Source of the DNA: Phenylobacterium sp.
GTDB lineage: Bacteria; Pseudomonadota; Alphaproteobacteria; Caulobacterales; Caulobacteraceae
Length of the DNA: 64,000 nucleotides
Assembly: GCA_017991675.1 (NCBI GenBank)
Contig: JAGOQB010000002.1
Span: 1 to 64,000 of the forward strand
Direction: 5' to 3'
Below the pieces are notes generated by a model. The model was given only the letters and a program-made list of their open reading frames with translations. It was not told the origin of the DNA and ran no database searches. A program made the translations under genes and the position numbers. Each line of letters opens with the position of its first letter. Position 1 is the first letter of the stretch. Of the stretch, positions 15,768 to 55,722 are shown piece after piece.

Positions 15768-15799
15768 GTTCTTGTTTTGTTCGCCGCGTGCGGTATGCT
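15768..15799 (+). promoter_or_regulatory. SOS promoter: LexA box GTTC-N7-GTTC with -10 TATGCT
   Basis: GTTCTTGTTTTGTTC at 15768-15782 is a perfect match to the alphaproteobacterial LexA consensus. It covers a -35-like TTGTTT at 15772-15777, followed after 16 bp by TATGCT at 15794-15799. The ATG at 15806 is seven bases beyond the -10, predicting a leaderless transcript. The same arrangement recurs at 54599-54630. Confidence 0.85.
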
Positions 15800-15805
15800 G
15801 GCCTG

Positions 15806-16478
15806 ATGCATGAAACCATCGAGACAGGGCCCCCGCGCAACCGCCCGGCGCGGCCGTTCTGCGAGGCCACCGCCGCGCAGATCTGCAGCCGCGTCGCCGC
15901 CGGCGAGAGCCTGCGGGCGATCTGCAAGCCGCGCGACATGCCGGGCGCGGCGACGGCCGGCGTTCGGGACGGCGCTGCGGCAGGCCCAGGCCGCAGCGCA
16001 GGCCGGGCGGCGGGACGCCTATCGCGCCAAGGCGGCCGACCGGGCCTGGAAGCGCGCCCGCCCCTGGGCGCGGCCGGATGCGTACCGGGCAGAGGTCGGC
16101 GAGGAGATCTGCCGCCGGCTGGCCAGCGGCCGCAGCCTGCTGGAGATCTGCGGCGAGGACGACATGCCGGTCACCGGCACGGTCTATGAGTGGCTGCGCG
16201 CGCACGATGACTTCGCCGCCATGTACCGGCAGGCCCGCCGGATGCAGGCCGAGATGCTGGCGGACCTGGCCTGGGCCATCGCCAGCGAGGCCCGCGAGGA
16301 CGGGGTCAAGGTCGCGCGGCTGCAGTTCGACGTGTTGCGCTGGCGCGCCGCGCGGCTGGCGCCCAAGTCCTATCGCGAGGAGGACGAGCCCCGCGAAGGC
16401 GGCCTCGAGGTCTATCTGCAGGACTTCACCAGCGGGGCGATCCTGGCCGGGCCGATCTGGTCGGGTCCGGGCGCCTAG
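15806..16478 (+). pseudogene. SOS-controlled terminase-small-subunit-like gene, broken by a frameshifting deletion
   Basis: The frame from the ATG at 15806 begins with a unit FCEATAAQICSRVAAGESLR...DMPGAAT, then loses sense at about 15953. From about 15962 the downstream frame resumes with AFGTALRQAQAAAQAGRRDA and continues into a second, complete unit (YRAEVGEEICRRLASGRSLL, DDMPVTGTVYEWLRAHDDFA, MYRQARRMQAEMLADLAWAI) that resembles Sf6-like phage terminase small subunits, including the closing RLAPKSY. Aligning unit 1 to unit 2 shows that about eight residues are missing, so a deletion of 3n+2 bases fits. A second ATG at 15810 is in the downstream frame, so a protein with a nonsense N terminus and intact second domain could still be made. 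No other phage genes are nearby. Confidence 0.7.
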
Positions 16479-54598: not shown

Positions 54599-54630
54599 GT
54601 TCTTGTTTTGTTCGCACTCGATTCTATGCT
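54599..54630 (+). promoter_or_regulatory. SOS promoter: LexA box GTTC-N7-GTTC with -10 TATGCT
   Basis: GTTCTTGTTTTGTTC at 54599-54613, identical to the box at 15768, overlaps the -35 TTGTTT; the 16-bp spacer leads to TATGCT at 54625-54630. The GTG start at 54637 is seven bases further, predicting a leaderless transcript. Confidence 0.85.
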
Positions 54631-54636
54631 CATGCG

Positions 54637-55722
54637 GTGAGCACCTTCACCCAGCAGATCACGGTTCGCGGCCGCGGCGCGCGGTCCAACGCCAGCGGGC
54701 GATTCGAGAGCCAGGCCCGCGAGGCGTTCGACGACGGCTGGACGCTCGAGGACGCCGAGCCCCAGCAGCTGAAGACCACGCTGAGCCCCGAGAAGGCCCG
54801 TACGATCATCAGCAAGAACGACAGCCCGGACGTCGGCTTCTCGCGCTCGATCAATCCCTATCGCGGCTGCGAACATGGCTGCATCTACTGCTACGCGCGG
54901 CCGGCCCACGCCTATATGGGCCTGTCGCCCGGGCTCGACTTCGAGAGCCAGCTGTTCTTCAAGCCCGACGCCCCGCGGCTGCTGGAAAAGGAGCTGTCCT
55001 CGCCGCGCTATAAGCCTGAGTTCATCCACATCGGCGGCAACACCGACCCGTACCAGCCAGTGGAGCGGACGACGCGGATCACGCGCGGGGTGCTGGAGGT
55101 GCTGGAGCGCTTCGGCCACCCCTGCTCGATCATCACCAAGTCGGCGCTGATCCTGCGCGACCTGGACGTCATCGGGGCGATGGGACGGCGCAATCTGTGC
55201 CGAGTGGCGATCTCGGTCACCAGCCTGGACCGCAAGCTGGCGCGCAGCATGGAGCCGCGGGCGGCGACGCCCGAACGCAGGATCGCGGCGATCAAGGCGC
55301 TGGCCGAGGCCGGCGTGCCGGTGGTGGTGATGTTCGCACCCGCCATCCCCAGCCTGAACGACCACGAGATGGAGGCGGTGCTGGAGCGGGCCGCCGAGGC
55401 CGGGGCCAAGGGAGCCGGCTATGTCGCCCTGCGGCTGCCGCGCGAGATCAAGGACCTGTTCCGCGAATGGCTGGAGACCGACCACCCCGACCGCGCCCGG
55501 CGGGTGATGTCGCTGGTCCGCCAGATGCGCGGCGGCCTCGACTACGATCCCGAATGGGGCAAGCGGATGCGCGGCGAAGGCCCGATCGCCGAACTGCTGT
55601 CGCAACGTTTCCATGCGGCCAAGAAACGGCTGGGACTGGACGCCAAGCTGCCCGCGCTCGACCTCTCGCAGTTCAGGGTTCCGGCCAAGGCCGGCGACCA
55701 GGGCGACCTGTTCGCCGGCTGA
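54637..55722 (+). CDS. Radical SAM protein, PA0069 family (SplB-related)
   Basis: The 361-residue protein has the radical SAM cluster motif CEHGCIYCYARPAHAY after YRGC, plus FSRSINPY, IHIGGNTDPYQPVE, GVLEVLERFGHPCSIITKSA and MFAPAIPSLNDHEM. It belongs to the PA0069/spore photoproduct lyase-related group; the reaction is unknown. The GTG at 54637 is chosen because the family N terminus (FTQQITVRGRGARSN) starts there and the -10 is seven bases upstream. A perfect LexA box covers the -35, implying DNA-damage induction. Confidence 0.88.
   Translation: MSTFTQQITVRGRGARSNASGRFESQAREAFDDGWTLEDAEPQQLKTTLSPEKARTIISKNDSPDVGFSRSINPYRGCEHGCIYCYARPAHAYMGLSPGLDFESQLFFKPDAPRLLEKELSSPRYKPEFIHIGGNTDPYQPVERTTRITRGVLEVLERFGHPCSIITKSALILRDLDVIGAMGRRNLCRVAISVTSLDRKLARSMEPRAATPERRIAAIKALAEAGVPVVVMFAPAIPSLNDHEMEAVLERAAEAGAKGAGYVALRLPREIKDLFREWLETDHPDRARRVMSLVRQMRGGLDYDPEWGKRMRGEGPIAELLSQRFHAAKKRLGLDAKLPALDLSQFRVPAKAGDQGDLFAG

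Follow-up and report, generated by a model that had tools for sequence, protein, structure and literature searches.

The window analysed here is the whole of a 64,000-nucleotide stretch of DNA from Phenylobacterium sp. (GenBank assembly GCA_017991675.1, contig JAGOQB010000002.1, positions 1 to 64,000), whose genome is represented by 25 contigs totalling 3.03 Mb and is 71% complete. Two genes on its forward strand begin just downstream of what appears to be an SOS promoter joined directly to a start codon. At the first site, the LexA-type operator GTTCTTGTTTTGTTC (GTTC-N7-GTTC) occupies 15768-15782, the -10 element TATGCT follows at 15794-15799 and the gene starts with ATG at 15806; at the second, the same 15 operator bases lie at 54599-54613, TATGCT at 54625-54630 and a GTG at 54637-54639. 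Both thus read GTTCTTGTTTTGTTC-N11-TATGCT-N6-start codon. The proposed -35 hexamer, TTGTTT, is contained in the operator spacer TTGTTTT, at 15772-15777 in the first operator and at 54603-54608 in the second, and 16 bases separate it from the -10; the resulting TTGTTT-N16-TATGCT has the spacing of a sigma-70-type promoter at both sites, and a GTTC-N7-GTTC operator within the promoter is what the alphaproteobacterial LexA regulon calls for. A preliminary description of this DNA had reported the box, TATGCT and start at 15768 and the same geometry at 54599 before an unrelated gene, and all of these elements are indeed found, operator and TATGCT being spaced identically. Its ATG is correct for 15806 and wrong for 54637, and the fixed length of 39 bases that it gave becomes 38 bases here, measured from where the box begins to the start, and mostly 38-40 in relatives. 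An ATG at 54632 was rejected as the start of the second gene, since it runs into TGA after two codons, as was an ATG at 15810 for the first, the N-terminal PF20901 match being in frame with 15806 instead.

The gene at 54637-55722 encodes a 361-amino acid radical SAM protein (PF04055) of the PA0069 family, with its GTG at the predicted +1. Its product scores 530.2 bits against NF033668 (cut-off 360), and its translation includes CEHGCIYC, an instance of the CxxxCxxC motif that holds the radical SAM cluster. The gene at 15806-16478, with ATG at the predicted +1, encodes a frameshifted homologue of the Sf6-type terminase small subunit (PF20901, PHROG 1482). A lexA gene is present in the same genome (C3:348100), matching TIGR00498 with 185.6 bits against a cut-off of 110.95. 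The region upstream of it also holds a box, at C3:348044-348058 (L455) and read on the other strand, as fits the expected autoregulation.

Bare GTTC-N7-GTTC occurs 85 times in this genome, as against 46 times for the reversed motif, so by itself it is weak evidence and the composite pattern carries the weight. GTTC-N7-GTTC-N(10-25)-TATGCT matches the genome only twice, both times in the window, and its reversed control not at all. A more general composite, GTTCTTGNNNTGTTC-N(10-12)-TANNNT-N(5-7)-RTG, was then compared with its reversal in samples of the family, order and class, which overlap and have genomes in common. In the family, 74 of 149 genomes contain the pattern, at 77 places; in the order 74 of 249 do, and in the class 41 of 289, at 43 places. 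The reversal is absent from the matches listed in all three. Such a search of relatives for box, -10 and start is the check that the preliminary description had proposed, and its outcome bears the proposal out: the unit occurs more often than chance would allow. Outside the genome of the window there are 75 family places, and 73 of these lie before PA0069-family genes (at least one of them a partial copy); the other two precede a terminase-like gene (L255) and one that looks isochorismatase-like by eye (L165). Among the 31 class places inspected (of 43), 27 are PA0069 genes by tblastn, two are the window sites, one is a contig-end fragment that is PA0069-like by eye (L381), and one is something else (L384).

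A sample based on the gene rather than the pattern was chosen to lessen circularity. It consists of the genes that match NF033668 in the 149 family genomes, with matches in 126; with G070, G095 and G068 excluded because the start of the gene is missing, it comprises 124 copies in 123 genomes, 74 of them found by the composite pattern (the window included) and 50 missed by it. Damaged copies were retained, for example those of G049, in which no box was found, and G145, and one of the two in G008. Upstream of 123 of the 124 lies a LexA box (no more than one mismatch), and 119 of these 123 have an in-frame ATG (106) or GTG (13) at a distance of 37, 38, 39, 40, 41 or 42 bases, counted from where the box begins (3, 51, 51, 12, 1 and 1 genes, respectively). 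A start at 38-40 bases is found in 114 of the 123; when the interval was shuffled 500 times, such starts numbered 2.8 on average and never more than 9. Among the 49 boxed genes not recovered by the pattern, 44 have a start at 38-40 bases. The standard deviation of the box-to-start distance is 0.8 bases, versus 17.8 for the distance from the box to the conserved core of the protein (44-116), so that the N-terminus of PA0069 proteins varies while the unit from box to codon stays constant.

When the 119 genes are aligned at their starts, T is found at -12 in 67%, A at -11 in 80%, T at -7 in 82% and C at -1 in 78%, and TANNNT begins at -12 in 75 of them. This profile is partly a product of selection, as the pattern that picked up 73 of the 119 demanded TANNNT nearby. 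In the 46 that it missed, the preferences persist, 65% having A at -11, 72% T at -7 and 83% C at -1, with C the commonest base at -12; a -10 signal at the distance expected if +1 is the start codon therefore survives there in weaker form. The TTG at operator positions 5-7 is present in 116 of 123 boxes, and in 42 of 49 in the pattern-missed set, but in only 3 of the 33 other GTTC-N7-GTTC sites of the window's own genome that have T at position 11, some share of which are chance sites. Among the 114 relatives with TTG, the spacer to the -10 is 16, 17 or 18 bases in 48, 51 and 11, respectively (110 of 114). A search of the genus in which the operator spacer was left free and the -10 and start kept the same gave 33 matches, spread over 30 of 60 genomes, and the TTG is present in 31 of the matches. 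From these regularities we conclude that the LexA operator itself carries the predicted -35, in support of the earlier suggestion that box and -35 overlap and that TATGCT is the -10. A -35 held in the operator spacer would also explain the fixed length of the unit, the 38-40 bases from operator to start following from a 16-18 base spacer and a start codon at +1.

The nearest experimental parallel is in Caulobacter crescentus. The LexA regulon of that organism has the same type of operator, GTTCN7GTTC, and comprises 47 genes in 31 units (PMC12700426). Two of them, ccna_01391 and ccna_02355, share the LexA box GTTCttgttatGTTC, ccna_01391 being the faster to respond and CCNA_01391 an early, DNA damage-induced SOS gene (PMC12700426); the primary start of CCNA_01391 is labelled leaderless in a figure legend, and TTAT at -32 of it was interpreted as a CtrA motif (PMC4287350). 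TTAT is what GTTCTTGTTATGTTC reads from position 8 onward, which would put the start of such a box at -39, as is also seen in PA0069 genes of Caulobacter relatives (L231 and L235, for example). Among 22 sampled genomes of the putative Caulobacter genus, 16 contain the 15-mer GTTCTTGTTATGTTC, with 17 copies in all, 14 of them at PA0069 genes; the other three sites are at a gene that is endonuclease-III-like by eye and lacks the unit (L445), and at two others. A C. vibrioides control genome is among the NF033668 matches, and one of 14 controls was over the cut-off, a count not attributed to a genome. On this basis we infer that CCNA_01391 is probably the PA0069 orthologue and that its leaderless start has thus already been seen. 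CCNA_02355 we take to be CC2272. The latter is listed as nth-like (PMC1839093). An embedded -35 may then explain why ccna_01391 responds faster than ccna_02355 despite the identical box: ccna_01391 would have the embedded-promoter unit and ccna_02355, if it is the nth-like gene of L445, would not, which offers a sequence-level reason for promoters that differ while their LexA boxes are the same.

Taken together, the conserved geometry and the leaderless CCNA_01391, the presumed orthologue, make leaderless transcription well supported as a prediction, as the preliminary description had it from the two sites alone, the -10 of the relatives being anchored to the start codon. We put at roughly 85% the probability that each window site is an SOS promoter in which LexA operator, -35/-10 and start codon are fused into a rigid unit, with a leaderless mRNA predicted. 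In such a unit the GTTC-N7-GTTC operator would carry the -35 (TTG plus the next three bases) in its spacer, with the -10 16-18 bases on, and bound LexA would deny RNA polymerase access by occupying the -35. DNA damage would lead to RecA-driven cleavage of LexA, the promoter would be freed, and the leaderless mRNA made from it would be translated without a Shine-Dalgarno sequence. The unit at 54637 would drive a radical SAM gene that is intact, and the one at 15806 would head a frameshifted gene. LexA binding, an RNA start at the codon and translation from it are accordingly what would be expected at the two window sites.

Several observations weigh against this reading. Among the 75 genes with an exact TANNNT at -12, 65 come from those found by the pattern requiring TANNNT nearby, and in the pattern-missed set it is exact in just 10 of 46, most of the rest departing at -12, often with CA for TA. 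Four boxed PA0069 copies (L301, L311, L312 and L174) have no start at 37-42 bases, and one copy (L314, a split gene) has no LexA box. CCNA_01391 is a probable rather than an established orthologue, and its TTAT has, as noted, been given to CtrA. Shine-Dalgarno-like 4-mers are rare in the PA0069 set (9/119) and the uvrA set described next (4/28) alike, and their absence was discarded as evidence for leaderlessness, uvrA being equally poor in them. Finally, the distance alone is not unique to the PA0069 unit, one uvrA gene (L373) having its ATG 39 bases from the box.

The uvrA genes served as a control, 28 loci over the cut-off being obtained from 31 family genomes (not counting L377 and L378, which are fragments). 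All 28 have a LexA box (no more than one mismatch), and in 26 it lies 83-102 bases before the ATG; TANNNT is found at -12 in none of the 28 and at -13 in two. The exceptions are L373, which is possibly an independent fused unit, and L375, where the ATG is farther away. With the unit missing from 26 of 28 uvrA genes, it is not simply what SOS genes usually look like in this family. Many of these uvrA promoters (L349-L376) have a second architecture, GTTC-N7-GTTCTTG, in which TTG directly follows the box; it occurs in the window's own genome as well, at C11:209351, C11:218359, C20:40792 and C21:48232. At such sites the -35 may be situated immediately behind the operator. The recA gene was also tried as a control, with an exact box within 400 bases in 2 of 30 and one with at most one mismatch in 10 of 30, and proved uninformative on leader length.

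One alternative is a short leader: the RNA would start upstream of the codon, with another -10 in use or the start displaced, and the need for LexA to sit near the gene would be the sole reason for the constant spacing. That the four boxed PA0069 genes named above start elsewhere, two of them at 50 bases, fits such an arrangement. However, the -10 profile is anchored to the start codon at the distance proper to +1, in the pattern-missed set too, and TANNNT is found at no other position between -30 and -3 in more than 10 of the 119 genes; together with the reported leaderless start of CCNA_01391 (PMC4287350), this makes a short leader unlikely.

The purpose proposed for the unit in the preliminary description finds no support in this analysis. 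It held that a leaderless cassette keeps SOS proteins being made when ordinary translation initiation is limited, and in its favour are the conservation of the predicted leaderlessness across many genomes and the raised leaderless translation seen under oxidative stress in E. coli (PMC9031893). The Caulobacter literature is contrary: during normal growth, leaderless mRNAs there reportedly reach roughly the translation efficiency of leadered ones, and no mechanism induced by stress is responsible (PMC4117421); also, uvrA, which has a LexA box too, is leadered in 26 of 28 loci. The 13 GTG starts among the 119 PA0069 copies, which include genera other than Phenylobacterium, speak against it as well, non-AUG leaderless starts being of far lower efficiency in E. 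coli and likewise in Caulobacter, where GTG is described as poor for leaderless initiation (PMC9031893). The 54637 gene, with its GTG, would thus be a poor emergency design, and a purpose of this kind appears quite improbable. Within Phenylobacterium, 25 of 28 PA0069 loci have GTG (pattern matches of the genus only, L409-L436); either leaderless GUG works in this genus, or GUG sets a low level of protein. Last, that the two sites are alike by chance or by recent copying of one stretch is hardly credible, identical 15-base operators notwithstanding, as they differ in the 11 bases that separate operator from -10 and in the 6 that follow the -10, each unit is kept separately with its own gene in relatives, and the reversed-pattern controls gave nothing among the matches listed.

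PA0069 itself is a member of the Pseudomonas LexA regulon. SplB-like radical SAM photolyases are described as previously implicated in SOS, and for these relatives of the 54637 product, which falls in NF033668, the portions of PMC3765255 consulted describe no leaderless promoter. Leaderless mRNAs number 375 in Caulobacter (PMC4117421) and 171 in Sinorhizobium (PMC3616915), and the main texts on those sets make no mention of LexA and, in the parts seen, draw no link to an SOS operator. Conversely, the parts of the Caulobacter LexA regulon papers examined (PMC12700426, PMC4287350) do not describe a fused operator/-35/-10/start unit, and the word "leaderless" is absent from PMC12700426. Leaderless mRNAs of DNA-damage genes are already known from lexA and recX of Mycobacterium tuberculosis, a member of another phylum, though an operator-to-codon unit is not described in the relevant parts of PMC3062782. 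The MazF "stress ribosome" model ties leaderless mRNA to stress, and other laboratories failed to reproduce it (PMC9031893); nothing found here connects the window genes to MazF. No earlier description of the fused LexA unit was found in the portions of the literature examined, and what is present here is a set of known parts, SOS operator and predicted leaderless start, in an arrangement for which no description was found.

In place of a "LexA box near a gene" there is now a precise architecture, with a length that polymerase geometry would set, and it helps to place the start codons of the PA0069 protein family, which offers a widely conserved predicted leaderless gene for the study of leaderless translation. 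The GTG starts of part of Phenylobacterium would, if truly leaderless, be a natural test of GUG initiation outside actinobacteria. At somewhat less than even odds, we also suggest that, at the PA0069 gene, evolution has kept operator, -35, -10 and start together as a single unit across alphaproteobacteria because release of LexA alone sets expression; PA0069 would then be expressed without a leader, without a Shine-Dalgarno sequence and without control through a 5' leader.

The terminase-like gene at 15806 deserves separate description. The frame from 15806 matches positions 2-33 of PF20901 and the next frame positions 1-103; searched apart, the two halves score 32.3 and 116 bits (cut-off 27), and PHROG 1482 agrees. 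The split between two frames results from the absence of 23 bases after about 15953, which are present in all three relatives (in the L255 alignment they appear as separate blocks of 12 and 11). The gene is thus broken in this assembly, by deletion or assembly error, and its complete product may be lacking in this organism. In the relatives from G123 and G168, open frames beginning MHET follow the same operator/-10/start unit, and that from G098 carries the unit with a single mismatch in its operator; the unit is therefore carried by three of the three relatives examined, with TAAGCT, TAAGCT and TATACT at the place of TATGCT. A working Sf6-type small subunit gene would be expected to be intact and to adjoin a large terminase gene; the gene at 15806 is frameshifted and has no large terminase gene beside it among the neighbouring open reading frames tested, a subset that gave a VTT-domain protein, a fatty acid hydroxylase, an M48 peptidase or no match. 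The product is best called a PF20901 homologue, and only possibly a working phage terminase. PF20901-like paralogues are numerous in Phenylobacterium, with up to 13 matches per genome and some match in 32 of 80 genomes; several have a GTTC-N7-GTTC box upstream (among L193, L194, L196, L197, L265 and L437), and perhaps they form an SOS-controlled family of their own.

Two further pairs of genes stand behind such boxes in this genome. The proteins of L026 (C6:302188) and L028 (C6:324489) are alike by eye and have no Pfam match, each lying behind a LexA-like box. L003 (C3:23309) and L158 (C25:84147) encode small cysteine-containing proteins, again alike by eye and with no Pfam match, and both genes are preceded by the identical box GTTCTGCTTTTGTTC.
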